In this document: piece by piece, positions 250 to 10,279 of the stretch
Position numbering within the stretch: the stretch's first letter is position 1
Layout of the letters: the number at the start of each line of letters is the position of its first letter
Assembly (NCBI GenBank): GCA_003697105.1
Contig: RFFQ01000132.1
Location: forward strand, 1-10,301
DNA length: 10,301 bases
Reading direction: 5' to 3'
DNA from: Gemmatimonadota bacterium
GTDB taxonomy: Bacteria > 4572-55 > J002
Translations under genes and position numbers: made by a program
The notes under the pieces: generated by a model
Databases searched by the model: none
What the model was told of the DNA's origin: nothing
Seen by the model: the letters and a program-made list of their open reading frames with translations, nothing else

Positions 250-1770
250 ATGTTACAAGGTAAACGTAACCTGTTGATCCTACAAATCGTTTTGATAAGT
301 GTTTTTTCCTACGTATATGTTCAAGCCCGTGGCGATAATATCATCCAAAATCTGAATCTGTTTGGTCAGGTACTCAAAAATGTGGAAGAAAAATATGTAG
401 AAGAGGTCGATATGGCGAAGTTGTTGGAAGCCGCCACGGAGGGTTTGTTACGCCCGCTCGATCCTTACTGCCACTTGGTTGAAGCCGATGAACACGGTAA
501 CTTTCCACCACCTCATCACGGGAAATATGAGGTTGCCGGTTTGGTCCTCGGCGATTTTAACCACTCCCTGCGGATCGTCAGTACCTATGCTGGAAGCGAA
601 CCCGACCAGCGGGGTATCCGTTCCGGGGATTATATTTACAAAGTTAATGAGACCATTGTTCGTAATTTTTCCTTACCGGAATTGGTGCAATTGATTAACG
701 AAGTCGATACGGATACGTTGACCTTGGCAATTGTGCCGGTCGGTTCGCGCGGGTCGATCAATTACCGTTTCATGCGACCCGATGTGATCCAAAATAGTAC
801 CCCCCAAACCGTGCCTTATGCCTTTGTCACAGATGACCGGATCGGCTATGTACGGCTCGCTTATCTGACGGATCAAACGGCGGAAATCCTCAAGACGCAA
901 CTCGACCAGTTTGCCGCAAAAAACGTGACCCAGTTGGTTCTTGACCTGCGAGATTGTGCCAACGGTACCGTTGAAGAAGCCCAAGCGTTGGCGGAATTGT
1001 TCTTGCCCCGCGGGACAGTCTTTGCCGAGTTGAGCCATGACACCCATCAAGCACCCACCCAATTTAAAACCACCACCGCGCCAGTCTGGACGGGACCGGT
1101 TCTCCTGCTGACCAATCGGGGTACCGCCGGTATGGTGGAACTGCTTGCCGCCGCTATTGTTGAACATCAACGCGGTATCACCGTCGGGAAACCCACTAAC
1201 GGCAAAACCGGTTATCAGGAACTGTTGCCGGTAACTTCTACCTTGAAGATCGAACTCACCACCCGTGAATATCTCACTAGCCGTGGGAATTCACTCTTAC
1301 GTGAGGTCACGAAAGATGAAAATGGTGACGAAAAAGAGTTGCACCCCGCCGGCTTGAAACCCACGGTTGAAGTCAATGAAAAGTTGGATAAACGCTTTAT
1401 TCGCCAATTAGATGCCCAAAAATTGATCGATAAATTCGTCACAGATAAACCGTTGTTGCACGCTGATGCCCTCGATGAAGACGTACAGAAACAATTGCAG
1501 CAGTTCTTAGAAACCGAAAAATTTGAAACCGAAATCGAGCTTATTCAGGAATTATGGGACGATCTAAAACTCCGCTTGGAAGAAGCCTCATTACGCCACA
1601 ACCAAGGAGAGCTTGCCGCCGCTGAATTTGCCCTCACCCATGACCCACTGTACCAAGAAGCCGTTACCCTGTACAAAGGAATTACAACGACAGCTCAGCT
1701 AGTCGAACGGGGACAGGCGCGTCAGGTAAAAGCAGAAGCCGAGAAAACAGAGGAACCGGATCAAAATTAA
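250..1770 (+). CDS. S41 family (C-terminal processing protease-like) protein, probably catalytically inactive
   Basis: This is an exported or inner-membrane-anchored homologue of tail-specific proteases (CtpA/Prc). The start is fixed by TAAGGAG at 238-244, five bases before the ATG. Residues 7-26 form a signal peptide or anchor. Residues 36-75 match the S41 N-terminal helical region, including a YCHL-preceding LDP motif at 70-72. A PDZ domain spans about 93-165, and the S41 core about 195-375 (YVRLAY, LDLR, TNRGTAG, VGKPTNGKTG, REYLTSRG). The family's nucleophile motif TASASE reads TAGMVE here, so Gly294 stands where Ser is expected. Lys319 lies exactly 25 residues later, the normal Ser-Lys spacing, and is kept, as is Glu297. 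The NPGG loop after DLR is also changed (DCANG, 235-239). Residues about 380-506 are a charged helical tail. The fold assignment is firm. Inactivity is inferred from the missing nucleophile; it may act as a binding or scaffold protein. Confidence 0.9.
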   Translation: MLQGKRNLLILQIVLISVFSYVYVQARGDNIIQNLNLFGQVLKNVEEKYVEEVDMAKLLEAATEGLLRPLDPYCHLVEADEHGNFPPPHHGKYEVAGLVLGDFNHSLRIVSTYAGSEPDQRGIRSGDYIYKVNETIVRNFSLPELVQLINEVDTDTLTLAIVPVGSRGSINYRFMRPDVIQNSTPQTVPYAFVTDDRIGYVRLAYLTDQTAEILKTQLDQFAAKNVTQLVLDLRDCANGTVEEAQALAELFLPRGTVFAELSHDTHQAPTQFKTTTAPVWTGPVLLLTNRGTAGMVELLAAAIVEHQRGITVGKPTNGKTGYQELLPVTSTLKIELTTREYLTSRGNSLLREVTKDENGDEKELHPAGLKPTVEVNEKLDKRFIRQLDAQKLIDKFVTDKPLLHADALDEDVQKQLQQFLETEKFETEIELIQELWDDLKLRLEEASLRHNQGELAAAEFALTHDPLYQEAVTLYKGITTTAQLVERGQARQVKAEAEKTEEPDQN

Positions 1771-2442: not shown

Positions 2443-3375
2443 ATGCCAGTTCACGCCGCGATTGATATTGGCACAAATGCCGTTCTGTTACTTATCGCTG
2501 ACATCTCGAAACAAGGTCTCACCCCGCTTCACCTAGAGACCCGTATTGCCCGTTTGGGGCAACAGGTACATCTTACGGGTGAGTTGACACCTTCTGCAAT
2601 AGATCAGGTCACAACCATTTTGCAGGATTACCAGCGGATAATCCAGAATTTTGGTGCGGAGCCGGTCCTTGTCACCGGTACAAGTGCCGCCCGAGATGCC
2701 AAAAACCAAAGTAAATTGGTGGAGGCGGTCCGGAAGACCACCGGCTGGCAACTGCGTATCCTCTCAGGAGAAGAAGAAGCTCGCCTGACCTTTGAGGGGG
2801 GTGTCCTTGGACTAACCCCGGATACTTCGCACATTTTGCTGGTCGATATTGGGGGTGGGAGTACCGAACTCGTGTGGGGTATCCCCTCACCGCCCTCAAT
2901 ATATGCCTCGATTAGCCTGAATTTAGGTGCGGTGCGGTTGTTGGAAAAATTCATTACCGCAGCCCCCACGCCGGAGCGTGAATATCATGCCCTGCAACAA
3001 GCGATCCGCGCCGAATTGGAAATGGTTCCCCAACCTCCCATCCCGCCGGTGACATTAGCCGGTGTCGCCGGAACGGTAACCACATTAGCCGCGATCCACT
3101 TTGGGCTGGCAGAAGAAATCCCCGGACAGCTGCATAACCAGAGACTTTCACGGCATGATATTCACCGGATCAACGGCCAACTTCGCCAACAATCTCTGTC
3201 CGAACGCCTCCAGACACCGGGTTTACACCCCGGCCGGGAAGATGTCATTATTGTTGGCGCAACCATCCTCGAAACAATTATGGAAATGTTCGGGTTTAAG
3301 ACAATCACCATTAGCGAATACGGCTTGCGCTACGGCGTATTGTGGGACTACATCTCTCAGACGGAACACCGATGA
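2443..3375 (+). CDS. Ppx/GppA family phosphatase (exopolyphosphatase or pppGpp phosphohydrolase), short form
   Basis: This cytosolic enzyme of the ASKHA fold has 310 residues, the size of the short two-domain Ppx/GppA form found in Aquifex; the longer E. coli enzymes carry extra C-terminal domains. Motifs appear in order: IDIGTN (7-12, phosphate 1 loop), GTSAARDAKN (79-88), SGEEEARL (108-115, with the catalytic Glu at about 112), VDIGGGSTEL (134-143, phosphate 2), LNLGAVRL (159-166), AGVAGTVTT (about 206-214), GREDVIIVGATIL and EYGLRYG near the end. Members hydrolyse polyphosphate or pppGpp; the substrate cannot be chosen from sequence. The usual GTNS-x-R reads GTNAVL, so Ser13 and the following basic residue are lost. 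No good ribosome binding site precedes the ATG, and the terminator lies just upstream. The stop overlaps the next start (ATGA at 3372-3375), so translation is probably coupled to the glycosyltransferase. Confidence 0.9.
   Translation: MPVHAAIDIGTNAVLLLIADISKQGLTPLHLETRIARLGQQVHLTGELTPSAIDQVTTILQDYQRIIQNFGAEPVLVTGTSAARDAKNQSKLVEAVRKTTGWQLRILSGEEEARLTFEGGVLGLTPDTSHILLVDIGGGSTELVWGIPSPPSIYASISLNLGAVRLLEKFITAAPTPEREYHALQQAIRAELEMVPQPPIPPVTLAGVAGTVTTLAAIHFGLAEEIPGQLHNQRLSRHDIHRINGQLRQQSLSERLQTPGLHPGREDVIIVGATILETIMEMFGFKTITISEYGLRYGVLWDYISQTEHR
3372..3375 (+). other. ATGA stop/start overlap (phosphatase to glycosyltransferase)
   Basis: The ATG of the glycosyltransferase (3372-3374) overlaps the TGA of the phosphatase (3373-3375). 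No clear Shine-Dalgarno sequence lies before it, so initiation probably depends on ribosomes finishing the upstream gene. Confidence 0.8.
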
Positions 3376-4697
3376 AAACCGTTTTGATTCTTGCATACTA
3401 TTTTCCGCCGTTGGGCATGGGTGGCGTTCAGCGTTCCGCGAAATTCGTCAAATACTTACACCGTTTGGGCTGGCGACCGGTGGTCCTAACCGTTGGCGAT
3501 ATTGACTATTACGCTTACGACCCGGAATTAATGCAAGACATCCCTTCGGAGGTAGCCATCCACCGGATTACCGCGCCAGAGCCAGTGGTCATCCGGCGAG
3601 TTGCCAACAGGTGGCGTAACCGGTGGGTCCGGAGATCGCCCGCTACAGCATCCCCCCAGACGGGTAAAAAATGGAGTGAGCGGTTACAATGGGTTCTTTT
3701 GCCGGATACCAAGTCGATCTGGTGCCAATGGGCGTTACCCACAGCGCTAAATTTGATTCGGGATCAGGCGGTTGATGTGATCTTCGCCACCGCACCGCCG
3801 TACTCTGTCACCGGTTTGGGGATGGCATTAGCCCGCAAAACAGGCAAGCCGCTGGTAGTGGATTTTCGGGATGATTGGACCGGTGGAGAATTTGACCGTT
3901 ACCCCACGCGATGGCACCGCCGGTGGGTTGAACGTTTAGAAACCCGGGTGCTACAGTATGCCAGTGCCGTGGTTTCCGTCGCCGAACCGATCACGCGCCG
4001 TTTTCAGCAAAAACTCGGCAGCCAACCGGAAAAATTCTATACCATCCCGAACGGATTTGATGCGGAAGATTTTACCCGACCCGCACTGCCACGCTCCGAA
4101 AAATTGACCTTTACGTACAGCGGTGCAGTCACTCCGGATCGAGACCCTACTCCCTTTTTACGGGCACTTTCCCGTGCCGTGCAAAGTCATCCGGAACTGC
4201 GGCATCACATCCGGTTTGTTTGTGTCGGAGCACATTTGGGAGTCGATGTTCGGGCGCTTGCCAACCACTTGGAATTATCATCAATGGTGGAATGGGTACC
4301 GTACCAACCACATTCCAAAAGTGTGGCATATCTGCTGGCATCGGATGTGCTGGTTTTATTGATAACCTCTGAAACCGCCCGGTCGGCGGATGTGCCCACC
4401 GGTAAAATTTATGAATATCTGGCGGCACAAAAACCGATTCTTGCCCTCGCGCCTGAAAATGGCATAGCGGCAAACATGATCCACATGTATGGCAGTGGTA
4501 TGGTGTGTGACCCAACACATGTGGATAAAATAGCAACTACCATTTGGCAATATTACCAACAGCTTAAAAGCGGCACATGGAACCCATCCCCACCGCTCCC
4601 CATAACCTGTTTTGAGCGCCAAACCTTAACTCGGCAACTCATTGATATTTTTGACACAATCATTTCAACCCAGAGGAACAGATCGACGAATGCGTAA
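3372..4697 (+). CDS. Glycosyltransferase, GT4-like GT-B fold
   Basis: The product has 441 residues and no signal peptide, so it should act at the cytoplasmic face in building a surface glycan. The N-terminal domain starts YYFPPLGMGGVQRSAKFVKYL (glycine-rich GT4 entry, about 9-29). The middle contains VDFRDDWTG (163-171) and a conserved VVSVAEPITRRF helix (200-211), then IPNGFD (225-230). The C-terminal donor-binding domain has YSGAVTPDRDP (249-259), LLASDVLVLL and VPTGKIYEYLAAQKPILAL (341-359), whose K-x-YEYLA-x-x-KP pattern is typical of GT4 nucleotide-sugar binding. The start at ATG 3372 is chosen over a GTG ten codons earlier because it begins the family motif MKTVLILAYYFPP and overlaps the phosphatase stop. 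The sugar donor and acceptor are not predictable. It sits between the phosphatase and the lytic transglycosylase in one operon. Confidence 0.88.
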   Translation: MKTVLILAYYFPPLGMGGVQRSAKFVKYLHRLGWRPVVLTVGDIDYYAYDPELMQDIPSEVAIHRITAPEPVVIRRVANRWRNRWVRRSPATASPQTGKKWSERLQWVLLPDTKSIWCQWALPTALNLIRDQAVDVIFATAPPYSVTGLGMALARKTGKPLVVDFRDDWTGGEFDRYPTRWHRRWVERLETRVLQYASAVVSVAEPITRRFQQKLGSQPEKFYTIPNGFDAEDFTRPALPRSEKLTFTYSGAVTPDRDPTPFLRALSRAVQSHPELRHHIRFVCVGAHLGVDVRALANHLELSSMVEWVPYQPHSKSVAYLLASDVLVLLITSETARSADVPTGKIYEYLAAQKPILALAPENGIAANMIHMYGSGMVCDPTHVDKIATTIWQYYQQLKSGTWNPSPPLPITCFERQTLTRQLIDIFDTIISTQRNRSTNA

Positions 4698-7032
4698 ACC
4701 TGTACTACTCATTTGGGGATTAACAACGTTTTTACTGCTGATGTTGATCGGCAGCTCTCGCTTATCTTCCACCACCGAAGCCGCATCCCGGTCGGAAATT
4801 GCCGCCACCTTTAACCCGGAAGCGATCCGGGAATGGGTCCGGCACGATTATGCCGTGGATTCCCTCTCAAGCCAGATCGAATCTCAATTTGTAAAGTTTA
4901 CCCGTGGCTATCTGCTGTACCAGCAGGAACATTGGCAAGCCGCCCAAGCCGATTTTGCCAGTATGCTCGACTGGCAATCTTTTCCGTTAGAAGATTACGC
5001 GCAGTTTTATCTGGCAGACATTTTCCGGCAACAAGATTTGCCGGATTCTGCCGCAGTGTATTTGGAAGCTATTTTGAAACATCACCCCCAAAGCCTTTGG
5101 ATACCGGAAGCAGGCATCTGGTTGGGGCAATATTATGTAGAACGTGAGCAATATGAACCTGCAATCCGGGTGTTGGCACAGGCACTCAGTGTGCCCTCCC
5201 TCGATCCGGAAAAAAAATATGAGTGCCTGACTCTCTTGCAACGGGCGTATCAGGAACAGGATGACCGGGTACCGGCAGATTCCCTGAAATTGTACCTATG
5301 GCGGGAATTTCCCCTGCGACATGAAGGCAACCGTCCGGCGAATGCTACGCTAGTGGATCGATTCCGCCGGGCGGAACTCTTTTTTGAAAATGGCTATATG
5401 ACCAGCGCCCGCAAAAGTTACACGGCATTAAAAAGCATCGCCCGAACGCCGGAAGATAAAGCCCGTGCCACCCTTGGCGAAGCCCGTGCCCGAATGAACG
5501 CCAAATTTCGCTGGCGACGATCCCGAAACGAAAAACGGATGGCAGAATTGACCGTATCAAACTTAAAACCCCTGTTTCAAAAAAAACTACCCGCAGAACT
5601 GGGTTCGGAAGTTGGTTATTGGTTAGGGCGTGCCTATGAACGATTGGGGCGGGAAAAATCTGCGCGAAATGTGTACAAAGCTACTTTGGAACGCTACGCT
5701 AACGGTACATATAGCCCCAAAGTCCGAATTGAATTAGCGGAACTATATCTCAAATCAAAACAAATTCATCTAGCAGATTCACTCAGCCAGCAATTAGCGG
5801 TCACGGAGGAATCGGTTGTCTCTTTGTGGCATTTGGGGTGGGCGGCGTACCAAACGAATCAATTTGAATTCGCCGAACGTATCTTTCAAGAAATAGGGCA
5901 CCTGCCAGATTCCCGGCGGTGGCAAACTCGGGGACGGTACTGGGCGGCACGTTCCCTAGAACGGCAGTACCAGTGGGAAAACGCCGCTATTCTATATCAG
6001 CAGATTTGGGATCAATTTGATTACACCTATTATGGCTATGCCAGCCGCAGCCGGCTTAACCAACTACCGGCAGGTGTGCGCCAGAGGCTTTCAGAGACCG
6101 AACCGGACACGCTGGAAGCCCGATCCTCCCAATTGTGGATCAATCGATTTTGGAATACGTGGCAACGCAGTTGGCGCCGTACCGGACGTTCTTTGCCGGA
6201 GATTGAGGTCGATGTGATCCCCGAATTTCAGCGTTACCATGAGTGGCGTGCTCAATTATTTATGCAATTGGGGCTTTACGAACCGGCTCTGAATGAACTC
6301 AAAGCGTTGCAACGGGAGTACCCCCAACGAATGGCGTATTACGCTCAACTGGCATGGGTGTACCAGCGCATGGGTGATTACCGGCGGAGTATTATCTGGC
6401 TGAACCGGTGTCCCGATCCTCCCGATGCCACCGAAGAAACCTACTGGCATCTGTATTACCCGCTGGAATATTGGGATATTGTTAAAGAAAAGACCGAAAA
6501 ATATAATATTTCACCCTTTTTGCTGATGGGGTTAATTCATCAGGAGAGTGCCTTTGACCCCAAGGCAAAATCGATTGCCAACGCACGAGGCTTAACGCAA
6601 GTGATCCATTCCACTGGGCGGATTATCGCCCGGCGATTAGGGGTGCGTGGATTTAAATCCAGCATGTTGTACGATCCCCCAACGAGTATCGAATTTGGCG
6701 CCTATTACTTAAATTTGGGATTGCAAAAAAGTGGCGGAAATGTGGCGGTAGCAGTGGCGGGCTATAATGCCGGTGTGGAACGGGCAGTCCGGTGGTGGCA
6801 GGAACGCGGCGATCTGGAAGTTGATGAGTGGATTGAAACCATCCCCCTGAACGAAACGCGCAACTATGTCAAACGGGTCATTCGGAATTACTATGCCTAT
6901 CAAGATATTTATGGCGAGGATGTCCAGCAGGTCAATCCGGCGGGATATTTAACGAATCGGATTCCGTTTGTGGGAGATCCAACCATTGGCGGATGGGCGC
7001 CTGCGGGGCGAACACCCGGAGTTGTTGAATGA
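4690..7032 (+). CDS. Lytic transglycosylase with Slt-type domain and long helical-repeat region
   Basis: The product is a periplasmic or anchored enzyme of 780 residues that would cleave the MurNAc-GlcNAc bond of peptidoglycan, forming 1,6-anhydroMurNAc ends. A hydrophobic segment (5-20) and a Ser/Ala-rich stretch form a signal peptide. Residues about 45-585 are TPR-like helical repeats, comparable with the superhelical part of Slt70 but longer. The SLT domain (about 595-745) contains HQESAFDP with catalytic Glu619, Ser628, the motif GLTQ (634-637), GYNAG (691-695) and a NETRNYVKRVIRNYYAYQ motif. The usual GLMQ-x-MP reads GLTQ-x-IH, so Met and Pro are replaced. The start at ATG 4690 (MRKPVLLIWG) overlaps the glycosyltransferase stop by eight bases. 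AGAGGA lies at 4672-4677, a rather long 12 bases away. An in-frame TTG at 4642 is rejected because the signal peptide begins later. The 3' end overlaps the opposite gene by 101 bases. Confidence 0.92.
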   Translation: MRKPVLLIWGLTTFLLLMLIGSSRLSSTTEAASRSEIAATFNPEAIREWVRHDYAVDSLSSQIESQFVKFTRGYLLYQQEHWQAAQADFASMLDWQSFPLEDYAQFYLADIFRQQDLPDSAAVYLEAILKHHPQSLWIPEAGIWLGQYYVEREQYEPAIRVLAQALSVPSLDPEKKYECLTLLQRAYQEQDDRVPADSLKLYLWREFPLRHEGNRPANATLVDRFRRAELFFENGYMTSARKSYTALKSIARTPEDKARATLGEARARMNAKFRWRRSRNEKRMAELTVSNLKPLFQKKLPAELGSEVGYWLGRAYERLGREKSARNVYKATLERYANGTYSPKVRIELAELYLKSKQIHLADSLSQQLAVTEESVVSLWHLGWAAYQTNQFEFAERIFQEIGHLPDSRRWQTRGRYWAARSLERQYQWENAAILYQQIWDQFDYTYYGYASRSRLNQLPAGVRQRLSETEPDTLEARSSQLWINRFWNTWQRSWRRTGRSLPEIEVDVIPEFQRYHEWRAQLFMQLGLYEPALNELKALQREYPQRMAYYAQLAWVYQRMGDYRRSIIWLNRCPDPPDATEETYWHLYYPLEYWDIVKEKTEKYNISPFLLMGLIHQESAFDPKAKSIANARGLTQVIHSTGRIIARRLGVRGFKSSMLYDPPTSIEFGAYYLNLGLQKSGGNVAVAVAGYNAGVERAVRWWQERGDLEVDEWIETIPLNETRNYVKRVIRNYYAYQDIYGEDVQQVNPAGYLTNRIPFVGDPTIGGWAPAGRTPGVVE
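6932..7032. other. 101-bp tail-to-tail coding overlap
   Basis: The last 33 codons and stop of the lytic transglycosylase (plus strand) and the last codons of the O-antigen ligase (minus strand, TGA at 6934-6932) use the same DNA on opposite strands. No convincing terminator hairpin is seen inside or just beyond the overlap; a short T run at 7043-7047 has no good stem before it. Confidence 0.85.
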
Positions 7033-9070
7033 GGGAGTCCCGTTTTTCTGTACGACCTAAGCGGTGATTGCAAACGATCTGGATGCGCCAGTACAGCAAA
7101 TTTTGGCGGTACTCCGCATCCAATGCGTTTCCTATTTTCAGGGCATTTTTGCAGTCCCCGCTTTGTTCATATGCCAACATAAGTTGGTATTGTATTTGGG
7201 GATTTTCCGGTTCTTTCGCCAAAGCGTCTTCCAATATCGGCACCGCCGCCGCCCCCTTGCGTTGCTTGACCAACAACTGCGCCAACCAGCGGCGGTGCTT
7301 GTCGCTGTTCGGGTTCAAGGTGAGTTCGGCGTTTAGTCGTTCGATGGCTTCCTCTAACCTGCCCGTCGCTTGGAGCAACATCGCAATATTGAACTGCAAC
7401 CCCGGATAGTTAGGCATTATCTGTTCTGCCTGTTGGTAATCTTTCTCCGCTCGATCATAATCTCCCTGCCGCAAATAGACATATCCCCGCTGGACATACC
7501 CATCCACCCGGAAGGGGTCTATTTCAATTGCGCGGGAAAGCTCCTTTTGGGCGGCAAGCAAGTACGGTTGCTTATTGAGATTCGGGTGGTCATACGTCGC
7601 AATCGCCAATTGGCGCAAGATATTCTGACCCCGCTGCAGAGCCACATCACCCCGAAAAAAGATGATAGAATGCCACCCCACTCCACCCACCAGCACCGCG
7701 CTGATCAACCCGATCAGAGGAAAGTAACCCGGCAGCGGATGGTGGCGAAGTTTTCTGGAACGGGGTTTCTCAGATGCCTCGCCGGTGGGATCGTCACCCC
7801 ATGCGCACCGGTCGGTAATTCCCATACTCAACCACAGCAGGGTCGCCGTGGAGACAAACCGGCTATCCACACTGAACAAATTTTGCACCCACACACCGGT
7901 TATCCCCACGATAAGATAGAGGGTTGGGTCACGCCAAAAGGACGGATGTTTTAAGTAGGCACGGATGGCGCTCCCGTACAGTAACATGAGTACGGAAAGT
8001 TGTAACAGCAATCCAATAATGCCGGTTTCGGCGGCAGTCTCCAAAAATTCGTTATGCGCATGGGAAAGCAGATGGCGGCTAAAGGGGTGATATTGATCCA
8101 ATTCCGGCGGTTTAAACAGGGGAACCTTCACTACAAACGTGCCGTAGCCATGTCCCCACAGGGGTTGAGCCTTAAACATGTTGAATGCACTTTGCCAGAT
8201 CAACACCCGCGCCCTGTTGAAATCGGAGTCCACGAGGGTTTTAATGCGATCCTGAAATTGCGGAACCATCCACAATATCCCGGCACCGATTCCCACCAAT
8301 AACATGACCATCCCGACCATCAAAAAGGCACGCCGGCGATCCGTTTGCGGGTGGCGCATCACTTTCCAGCCGGTGAGTAACGCCAACAGAATACAGGCAG
8401 CCACAAAACCAACCCATCCGCCCCGGCTTTGGGTAAAGACCAGACTCAGGATCATTCCGATCATCAGTAGTGCGATTCCGATCCGGAGAGGTACGGATCG
8501 AGCTTGGAGCAATCGCCACAACGCCAGGGGTAACGTCAGTACCAAATAGGTTGCCAGATGGTTGGGTGAGCCAAAGGTTGACCAGACCCGTTTAATCGGA
8601 TGATCTCCCCGCCACGGTAGAAATTCGATGTCAAACCATTGTAAAATGGCATACATCATCACTAATGTTGCCGCCATGAGCCAGACATCGACGAGCCAAC
8701 GTAATTGAACACGCCGCGTGATGGTGTGCAACGCGCTGAGGTAAATCAGCACATAAAACAAAAAATTACTGAAGGCAAAAAGGGTGGTACGCCAATAAGG
8801 TAACGCCCATAACAAGGTGAGGGCATTCCATAACAGATAGAGACATATCAAACGGGATAACCGGGTGGGTAAATATGCCGTTGGGGGGCGAACAGCAAAC
8901 TGGATTAGGAAGGTTGCACCCAATAATGCCCCGCTCAGACGCAACAGCACGGTTTTAATCACACCGACATCAGACGTTTGGTACCAAATCAGGGTTGGGA
9001 TGAAAAATGTGAGGAGGAGAAGTATGGTGTACGAGAAATGGCGGGTAAAATAGGCTCGTTTTGCCGTCAT
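6932..9070 (-). CDS. O-antigen ligase/polymerase (Wzy_C/WaaL-like) with C-terminal TPR domain
   Basis: The product is a polytopic inner-membrane protein of 712 residues. Roughly ten to twelve hydrophobic segments occupy residues 13-420, with another at 448-472. The ligase signature includes TFGSPNHLATYL (165-176), TQSRGGWVGF (213-222, Arg216), NRARVLIW (285-292, Arg288), PLWGHGYGTF (303-312) and SHAHNEFLETAAETGIIGLL (336-355, His339). Conserved Arg and periplasmic His residues like these are known to matter in WaaL. Members transfer or polymerise lipid-linked glycans onto lipid A core, glycans or proteins; the acceptor here is unknown. Residues about 500-690 contain four to five TPR-type repeats (for example YVQRGYVYLRQGDYDRAEKD). 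The start ATG (9070-9068) overlaps the stop of the sensor kinase as ATGA and has no good ribosome binding site, so it is probably translationally coupled. The 3' end runs 101 bases into the lytic transglycosylase gene. Confidence 0.9.
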   Translation of the reverse strand: MTAKRAYFTRHFSYTILLLLTFFIPTLIWYQTSDVGVIKTVLLRLSGALLGATFLIQFAVRPPTAYLPTRLSRLICLYLLWNALTLLWALPYWRTTLFAFSNFLFYVLIYLSALHTITRRVQLRWLVDVWLMAATLVMMYAILQWFDIEFLPWRGDHPIKRVWSTFGSPNHLATYLVLTLPLALWRLLQARSVPLRIGIALLMIGMILSLVFTQSRGGWVGFVAACILLALLTGWKVMRHPQTDRRRAFLMVGMVMLLVGIGAGILWMVPQFQDRIKTLVDSDFNRARVLIWQSAFNMFKAQPLWGHGYGTFVVKVPLFKPPELDQYHPFSRHLLSHAHNEFLETAAETGIIGLLLQLSVLMLLYGSAIRAYLKHPSFWRDPTLYLIVGITGVWVQNLFSVDSRFVSTATLLWLSMGITDRCAWGDDPTGEASEKPRSRKLRHHPLPGYFPLIGLISAVLVGGVGWHSIIFFRGDVALQRGQNILRQLAIATYDHPNLNKQPYLLAAQKELSRAIEIDPFRVDGYVQRGYVYLRQGDYDRAEKDYQQAEQIMPNYPGLQFNIAMLLQATGRLEEAIERLNAELTLNPNSDKHRRWLAQLLVKQRKGAAAVPILEDALAKEPENPQIQYQLMLAYEQSGDCKNALKIGNALDAEYRQNLLYWRIQIVCNHRLGRTEKRDSLIQQLRVFAPQAPIRQWLDLPQTESDSLNIPPD
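9067..9070 (-). other. ATGA stop/start overlap (sensor kinase to O-antigen ligase)
   Basis: On the minus strand the ligase ATG (9070-9068) overlaps the TGA of the upstream regulator (9069-9067). The sequence before it is C-rich with no Shine-Dalgarno motif, which points to translational coupling and a shared transcript. Confidence 0.8.
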
Positions 9071-10188
9071 GGGGCGGTATCTATCTGGATCGTAGGAAGT
9101 GTGAAATGGAAGGTACTGCCTTGTCCCTCTTGGCTTTCGACCCAGATTCGCCCGCCGTGAGCTTCCACGGCAAGCTTGCAGAACGTCAACCCCAGACCGG
9201 ACGACACAAACTGATTTTCTTGATGCTTCCGGACTTGTTCAAATTTGTCAAAAATACGGGCTTGGTCTTCTTTGGGAATGCCGGCGCCGGAGTCGCTGAC
9301 ACTGATTCGGAGCCATCCTTCCGTGTGGGGGTGGGTACTGATGTGAATCATGCCACGTCGAGGTGTGAATTTTACGGCATTGCCGATCAAATTGGCGAAA
9401 ACCCGGACAAGTTTATCCCCGTCCACCTGAACAAATGGCGCATCGTAAGGAATATCGGTCTGGAAACTAATCTCTTTCTGGTTGATCAAGATGCGCACTT
9501 GCATAGCGGCATCACTCACCAGATCATAAATCCGGTGGGGGCGGCATGACAACTCCATGGCGCCTTCTTCCATCTTATGAATATCCAAAATATTGCTGAT
9601 CATCATCAGGAGTAGATTGGCACAATGTTGGCCATCATTAATCAGCCGGAGGGCAGTTTCTTGGTTCAGGGAGTCTGCCATTTGTGCCAGCATCTCAAAA
9701 ATGCTGGATAAGCTGGAGACCGGATTGCGGAGGTCATGAACCACCATATGCGTCAATTCTTCCTTCATTTTTTGGGAACGAACTAACTCTTGATTTGTGG
9801 CGGCGAGCTGGTCGTACAATGCTTTTACCCGGAGTTGTGCCCGCAATTTAGCATCCAACTCCTCAAACTCAAAAGGGCGGATGATGTAGTCATCGGCGCC
9901 AGTTTCCAAGCCCCGGATCATATCTTCCCGTTTGCGCTTCACCGCCGTGACCAAAATGACCGGTACATGACGTGTTTGCGGGTTTTCTTTGATTTTTTGG
10001 CACAATTCAAACCCGTTAATGTCCGGCATCATCACATCGGAGAATACCAGATCAATATCCTCCGCTAATTTTTCCAAGGCTTCACGCCCGTTGCTGGCAA
10101 AAACGGTCTCGTAACTGGCACCATCAAACATGGCTTCCATTAACATCCGGTTGTTGGCGTTATCATCGACAATTAAAATTTTGGGCAT
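9067..10188 (-). CDS. Response regulator-histidine kinase fusion (REC-HisKA-HATPase)
   Basis: The product is a soluble 373-residue signalling protein with its receiver first. REC spans about 1-120: acidic pair Asp8-Asp9, phosphoacceptor Asp51 in FSDVMMPD, Thr81, and Arg104 in IIRPF where the family nearly always has Lys. A coiled-coil linker (about 121-145) leads to HisKA with H-box VVHDLRNPVSS (149-159, phosphorylated His151). The HATPase domain shows the N-box ANLIGNAVKFTP, G1 DSGAGIP, F-box FDKFEQV and G2 GLGLTFCKL. There is no membrane segment and no output domain, so it probably receives phosphate from another kinase or senses a cytosolic partner and passes it on. The start at ATG 10188 gives the usual REC opening MPKILIVDDN; AAAGGAGA lies 12 bases upstream. 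A TTG 26 codons earlier is rejected because its extension is promoter-like A/T-rich DNA. Its stop overlaps the ligase start. Confidence 0.92.
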   Translation of the reverse strand: MPKILIVDDNANNRMLMEAMFDGASYETVFASNGREALEKLAEDIDLVFSDVMMPDINGFELCQKIKENPQTRHVPVILVTAVKRKREDMIRGLETGADDYIIRPFEFEELDAKLRAQLRVKALYDQLAATNQELVRSQKMKEELTHMVVHDLRNPVSSLSSIFEMLAQMADSLNQETALRLINDGQHCANLLLMMISNILDIHKMEEGAMELSCRPHRIYDLVSDAAMQVRILINQKEISFQTDIPYDAPFVQVDGDKLVRVFANLIGNAVKFTPRRGMIHISTHPHTEGWLRISVSDSGAGIPKEDQARIFDKFEQVRKHQENQFVSSGLGLTFCKLAVEAHGGRIWVESQEGQGSTFHFTLPTIQIDTAP

Positions 10189-10251
10189 TACCTGTGAGAA
10201 TCTCCTTTGCAGGGCAGTATTACCGGGGTTAAATACCATCAAAATTATGTA

Positions 10252-10279
10252 AATATAGATTATCAATACTCGCGTTGAA
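10252..10279 (-). promoter_or_regulatory. Possible promoter of the sensor kinase/O-antigen ligase operon
   Basis: On the minus strand a weak -35 TTCAAC (10279-10274, 3 of 6) lies 16 bases before a -10 TATATT (10257-10252, 5 of 6). Transcription would start near 10245, about 57 bases before the ATG. The -10 box is good and the region is A/T-rich, but the -35 is poor, so this is tentative. The last 20 bases of the window (10280-10301) are G/C-rich and hold nothing I can name. Confidence 0.35.

Follow-up and report, generated by a model that had tools for sequence, protein, structure and literature searches.

A probable CtpA-type pseudoprotease lacking the catalytic serine in a Gemmatimonadota bacterium

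The open reading frame at positions 250–1770 of the window (the whole stretch analysed, a complete contig of 10,301 bases, G000:C8) encodes a 506-residue homologue of the S41/CtpA proteases with glycine in the column of the catalytic serine. The reading of its product as a bacterial CtpA-type pseudoprotease, already put forward as probable in the initial annotation, is well supported at the sequence level: the protein has lost the nucleophile together with DLRxNxGG-loop residues, the serine is present in every relative sampled, and the same genome carries two active-type paralogues. The product is probably a partner or binding protein that does not cut proteins, and not an enzyme. The assembly comprises 4.18 Mb in 199 contigs and belongs to a deep, almost unsampled lineage; of the genomes compared, one (G001) is of its class, and the remaining relatives share only the domain with it.

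Family assignment and gene signals

ORF 250–1770 is, as judged from profiles and domain order, a full-length S41/CtpA-type carboxyl-terminal-processing homologue, in which putative N-terminal dimerisation helices, a diverged PDZ domain, the S41 core and a C-terminal domain follow one another along the 506 residues. Peptidase_S41 (Pfam PF03572) was found at residues 197–356 with 95 bits, above the cut-off of 24, and the Pfam models CtpB_N-like (26.1 bits, cut-off 27) and PDZ (22.4 bits, cut-off 23.2) fell just under their thresholds. The C-terminal processing peptidase model prc (NCBIfam TIGR00225) gave 139.7 bits, short of the 218.6 that it requires. With the query left out, a profile of 49 homologues, mostly the best query matches in the genomes searched plus a few from viral and GTDB contigs, gave a colinear match over residues 9–495 (246.6 bits), with the posterior confidence of the alignment at its top level through the active site. 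The closest solved structures by sequence carry the annotation of carboxyl-terminal proteases and were, according to their titles, CtpA of H. pylori and of P. aeruginosa, followed by CtpB. Two AlphaFold2 runs on five-row alignments reached pLDDT values of 49 and 55, too weak for active-site geometry. A Foldseek search with the first of these models placed CtpA, CtpB and D1 protease on top (best E 3e-21), a result that supports the fold only. The features of the gene, all on the + strand, are the following:

163–191, +, sigma-70-like promoter sequence TTGACA-17-TATTTT upstream of the S41 gene, a candidate only (10/12 matches)
239–245, +, ribosome binding site aaggag, just upstream of the ATG at 250 (sequence)
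250–1770, +, gene of the putative CtpA-type S41 pseudoprotease, 506 aa (ORF, Pfam, profile match)
250–330, +, hydrophobic N-terminal signal or anchor segment, residues 1–27 (sequence; AlphaFold2 helix 2–25 in a low-confidence model)
331–519, +, N-terminal dimerisation region, residues 28–90 (conserved columns, constraint ratio, CtpB_N-like score)
520–780, +, PDZ domain, residues 91–177, strongly diverged with G95V, P117E, R150N and G151E (Pfam, conserved columns, constraint ratio)
943–972, +, DLRDCANGTV, residues 232–241, equivalent of DLRNNPGGLL and presumed oxyanion loop (alignments)
1123–1140, +, TAGMVE, residues 292–297, at the SASASE motif, with Gly294 in the nucleophile column (alignments, profile)
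1195–1218, +, TNGKTGYQ, residues 316–323, equivalent of TFGKGSVQ, with Lys319 and Gln323 kept (alignments)
1372–1719, +, C-terminal helical domain, residues 375–490 (alignable with the CtpA C-terminal domain of the same class)

The intact frame of 506 codons and the ribosome binding site were both part of the initial annotation and are borne out. The promoter that it also named is suggestive only, as the region holds six promoter-like sites against 3.2 expected, about twice the frequency found in shuffles.

Loss of the nucleophile

Codons 292–297 (1123–1140) read ACC GCC GGT ATG GTG GAA, that is, T-A-G-M-V-E, as described from the start, with the GGT of Gly294 at 1129–1131 and the codon of Lys319 at 1204–1206. 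Inspection of column 294, in an ungapped part of the alignment, found Ser in 49/49 of the closest homologues collected and Gly in the query. The general-base column holds Lys in all 49, at a Ser-Lys spacing of 25 in 45 of them and of 28 in the other four. In the query Lys319 sits exactly 25 residues past Gly294, and Gln323, at Lys +4, is retained as well. The spacings of 25 and +4 are those of the triads of B. subtilis CtpB, Ser309-Lys334-Gln338 (PMC3808539), and P. aeruginosa CtpA, Ser302-Lys327-Gln331 (PMC8764530); the H. pylori CtpA triad is Ser300-Lys325-Gln329. A misalignment that hides another Ser at the site was considered and rejected, because three kinds of alignment (pairwise, multiple and profile) give the same result and the spacing fits exactly; the early confidence in this alignment was sound.

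The change extends beyond the nucleophile. Besides S294G, the motif carries A295M and S296V; the FGKG motif carries F317N and G320T; and the DLRxNxGG loop reads DLRDCANG, with N236C and G238N at two positions invariant in the sample and also L241V. Presumably, as in the D1 protease structure, the glycine of this loop contributes to the oxyanion hole. Loss of catalysis by the Ser-Lys-Gln mechanism is near certain as far as sequence can tell. A rebuilt active site, in which another nucleophile such as Cys236 or Thr292 would act with Lys319 so that the protein is still an enzyme, is the least likely of the readings that we weighed and in our opinion very improbable. In its favour are the retained Lys319 and Gln323 and the Cys that replaces an otherwise invariant Asn in a loop that presumably borders the active site. 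Thr292, however, is the usual Ser/Thr two positions before the nucleophile, with Thr found there in several homologues that keep their Ser, and both the glycine of the loop and the switch in the PDZ domain have gone.

Of 39 near-invariant columns, each at least 97% invariant among 46 homologues, 24 are unchanged in the query and 15 have been lost (G95V, P117E, G151E, I179V, F206L, N236C, G238N, L241V, S294G, I298L, G301A, V322Y, P344S, I349L, and D372T). The residues lost include catalytic and, it appears, PDZ-gating ones, and many of those kept (among them G91, G97, G122, D127, R176, D232, R234, G239, F251, E297, G313, and G318) are apparently structural. In the PDZ domain a nearly invariant RG is replaced (R150N/G151E) and the carboxylate loop lacks its first Gly (G95V). 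Position 150 probably corresponds to Arg168, the substrate sensor of CtpB, since the spacing to the nucleophile is 141 in CtpB and 144 here, an equivalence read from spacing rather than from a direct alignment. The initial annotation had rightly argued from the residues next to Gly294 that this was not a single fresh mutation, although it understated the change. The same 15 columns, together with normal codon usage, led us to reject a sequencing error or one recent mutation as the source of the glycine.

Paralogues and relatives

When an active S41 paralogue was sought in the rest of the genome, two intact CtpA genes were found (C186:76520–76987 and C68:31579–32070), with SASASE, NPGG, and FGKG all present. 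They and their relatives in G001 share the architecture of the query, C-terminal domain included, and differ from it in the three motifs kept and in far shorter branches: the terminal branch of the query measures 5.7 changes/site against a median of 0.72, and those of the paralogues 0.94 and 1.22. Both paralogues have probable counterparts in G001 and the query has none. No orthologue of ORF 250–1770 was found in the class relative, 386 relatives, two phyla, viral contigs, or genome contigs; the best match reached 154 bits at 26% identity, and every homologue read carries Ser. The search of genome contigs returned one match, a CtpA with intact Ser, and the viral contigs contributed few additional homologues to the alignment. 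The pseudoprotease gene is not near either active CtpA paralogue. Elsewhere in the genome lie two tricorn-like S41 proteins (L004 and L005, on G000:C59 and C176), whose open frames span some 1,100 codons and whose nucleophile motif reads AGSDGD and includes the Ser.

Two observations were made on other S41 genes. IMG/VR contigs of 74–83 kb carry a long-branch CtpA-like gene with SASASE and YGKG intact (L053 2486–4126; the same gene in L064), which adjoins a gene resembling a kinase-phosphatase fusion. Genome G054 has tandem CtpA genes (L013 3–968 and 967–2592), with Ser intact in both.

Evidence for retention of the gene

The frame of ORF 250–1770 is intact over its 506 codons, and its codon bias relative to other genes (0.112 per codon) lies with those of the intact paralogues (0.099 and 0.112) and not with the two wrong frames (-0.10). 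GC content by codon position is 60/35/52%, resembling the neighbouring genes, and the agreement of codon usage with genes on other contigs weighs mildly against contamination of the contig. In a neutral simulation that started from the C186 paralogue and ran to 0.5 to 0.8 substitutions/site (37% to 24% identity) in 400 trials, about 15–19 in-frame stops arose and the frame stayed open in 0/400. An intact frame where all neutral simulations gave stops speaks against the gene having drifted neutrally over most of its history, and is compatible with a recent relaxation. A slowly decaying relic, that is, a surplus third copy of CtpA on which constraint has relaxed, still transcribed and with no present function, would account for the very long branch, the two intact paralogues, and the absence of an orthologue from one class relative and 386 sampled genomes. 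Against it stand the intact frame, the normal codon bias, the preserved GC contrast between codon positions, the promoter-like site and ribosome binding site, the stops that always arose in simulation at the same divergence, and a constraint that is uneven across domains, and we consider such a relic quite improbable. Retention by selection as a protein, which had been proposed at the outset, seems probable, although the support from the frame, codon usage, promoter-like site, and ribosome binding site is indirect.

Uneven constraint along the protein

Constraint by region was expressed as a ratio, with the query-to-homologue similarity (18 full-length homologues) divided by the similarity of these homologues to one another. 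This ratio was 0.84 in the N-terminal dimerisation region (bootstrap 0.51–1.15), 0.29 in the PDZ domain (0.09–0.43), 0.44 in the S41 core (0.32–0.54), and 0.27 in the C-terminal domain (-0.23 to 0.65), so that the PDZ domain is among the most accelerated regions and no special conservation is seen in the C-terminal domain, which is the second oligomerisation element. Most active homologues have a ratio near 1 in PDZ and core. All of the conserved columns of the dimerisation region are kept (6/6, P 0.02, with only six such columns there). Two other long-branch sequences go in the same direction more weakly (L018, 0.84 against 0.63 in the PDZ; L053, 0.46 against 0.37). The dimerisation region was less conserved at the outset, which produces a floor effect and makes the signal modest; we therefore take the uneven constraint as a lead and not as proof. 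With the N-terminal dimerisation region the least accelerated, the pattern points to oligomerisation as the property that may have been kept.

The initial annotation had favoured binding of a substrate or partner through the PDZ domain. This is disfavoured here, as the domain is strongly accelerated and has lost the carboxylate-loop Gly and the probable sensor Arg. More broadly, the product could be a stand-alone binding protein whose S41 cleft or PDZ domain holds a peptide or small ligand with no need of an active CtpA partner. The fold is kept and colinear along its length, the cleft retains its Lys and Gln, the PDZ domain is still recognisable, and there is a precedent in RBP3, an S41-like carrier that has lost its catalytic residues (PMC11750400). 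Nevertheless, the PDZ domain and core, the parts that would do the binding, are strongly accelerated and the dimerisation region is not, and we regard this possibility as rather unlikely.

Gene neighbourhood

Downstream of the S41 gene, a small gene at 1873–2346, with its own promoter-like site at 1795–1823, encodes a 157-aa protein whose N terminus carries a transmembrane segment. Its T2SSG score of 14.5 bits, below the cut-off, is a hint of a pseudopilin-like protein, and a single weak match to it was found among 98 relatives. The other neighbours, at 3342–10266, encode a glycosyltransferase, a TPR-SLT transglycosylase, a Wzy_C/TPR ligase, and a receiver-HisKA-HATPase protein. The TPR-SLT lytic transglycosylase gene (+) and the O-antigen ligase/TPR gene (-), which lie on opposite strands, share about 100 bases at their 3′ ends (6932–7032). 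CtpA of P. aeruginosa governs cell-wall hydrolases via a TPR adaptor; a similar link to the neighbours seen here would be speculative.

Discussion

The query resembles CtpA and CtpB, its best Foldseek and sequence matches, in domain order, in colinearity over the full length, in the Lys and Gln of the triad with the spacing of 25, and probably in its N-terminal dimerisation helices. It differs from them in having Gly for Ser and a changed DLRxNxGG loop, PDZ loop, and probable sensor Arg, and shares roughly 20–34% identity with them in PDZ and core. Non-catalytic S41 homologues as such are already known: vertebrate RBP3/IRBP descends from proteases and no longer has their catalytic residues (PMC11750400). 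It is likewise an S41-related fold without protease catalytic residues, but it consists of several modules and carries retinoids and fatty acids, whereas the query is bacterial, CtpA-like and of a single module, with putative dimerisation helices and a diverged PDZ domain. We found no description of a bacterial CtpA/CTP pseudoprotease in the open-access literature.

It is common for a pseudoprotease to regulate its active relatives. We give an even chance to the possibility that the product is a non-catalytic CtpA paralogue, secreted or anchored in the inner membrane, that pairs as a subunit with an active CtpA, for which two active-type proteins with SASASE/FGKG are available in the genome. 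Two subunits of CtpB (PMC3808539) or of CtpA (PMC8764530) come together through a four-helix bundle built from their N-terminal helices, and in H. pylori CtpA the two subunits of an N-terminal dimer are never active together: one works while the other rests (PMC12749690). A dead half should be mechanically tolerable given this one-active-per-dimer behaviour. The pseudoprotease, with Lys319 and Gln323 kept and Ser gone, would not run the Ser-Lys-Gln mechanism; its N-terminal helices would pack onto the corresponding helices of an active CtpA subunit, giving a mixed dimer of which it would be the permanently resting half, and this half might modulate the active one or present partners to it.

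More tentatively, and with considerable doubt, we suggest a CTP machine of unlike subunits, in which the dead paralogue pairs through its N-terminal helices and fixes the one-active-per-dimer asymmetry. H. pylori CtpA reaches this asymmetry dynamically, whereas in the proposed mixed dimer the dead subunit would fix it; the arrangement can be likened to the ClpP/ClpR protease rings of catalytic and non-catalytic subunits. The obvious first candidates for a partner are the two active CtpA paralogues that this genome encodes. With its catalytic residues lost and its dimerisation region apparently kept, the protein itself would be a natural test case for the existence of mixed CTP dimers and for the usefulness of a design in which each dimer has one dead subunit.
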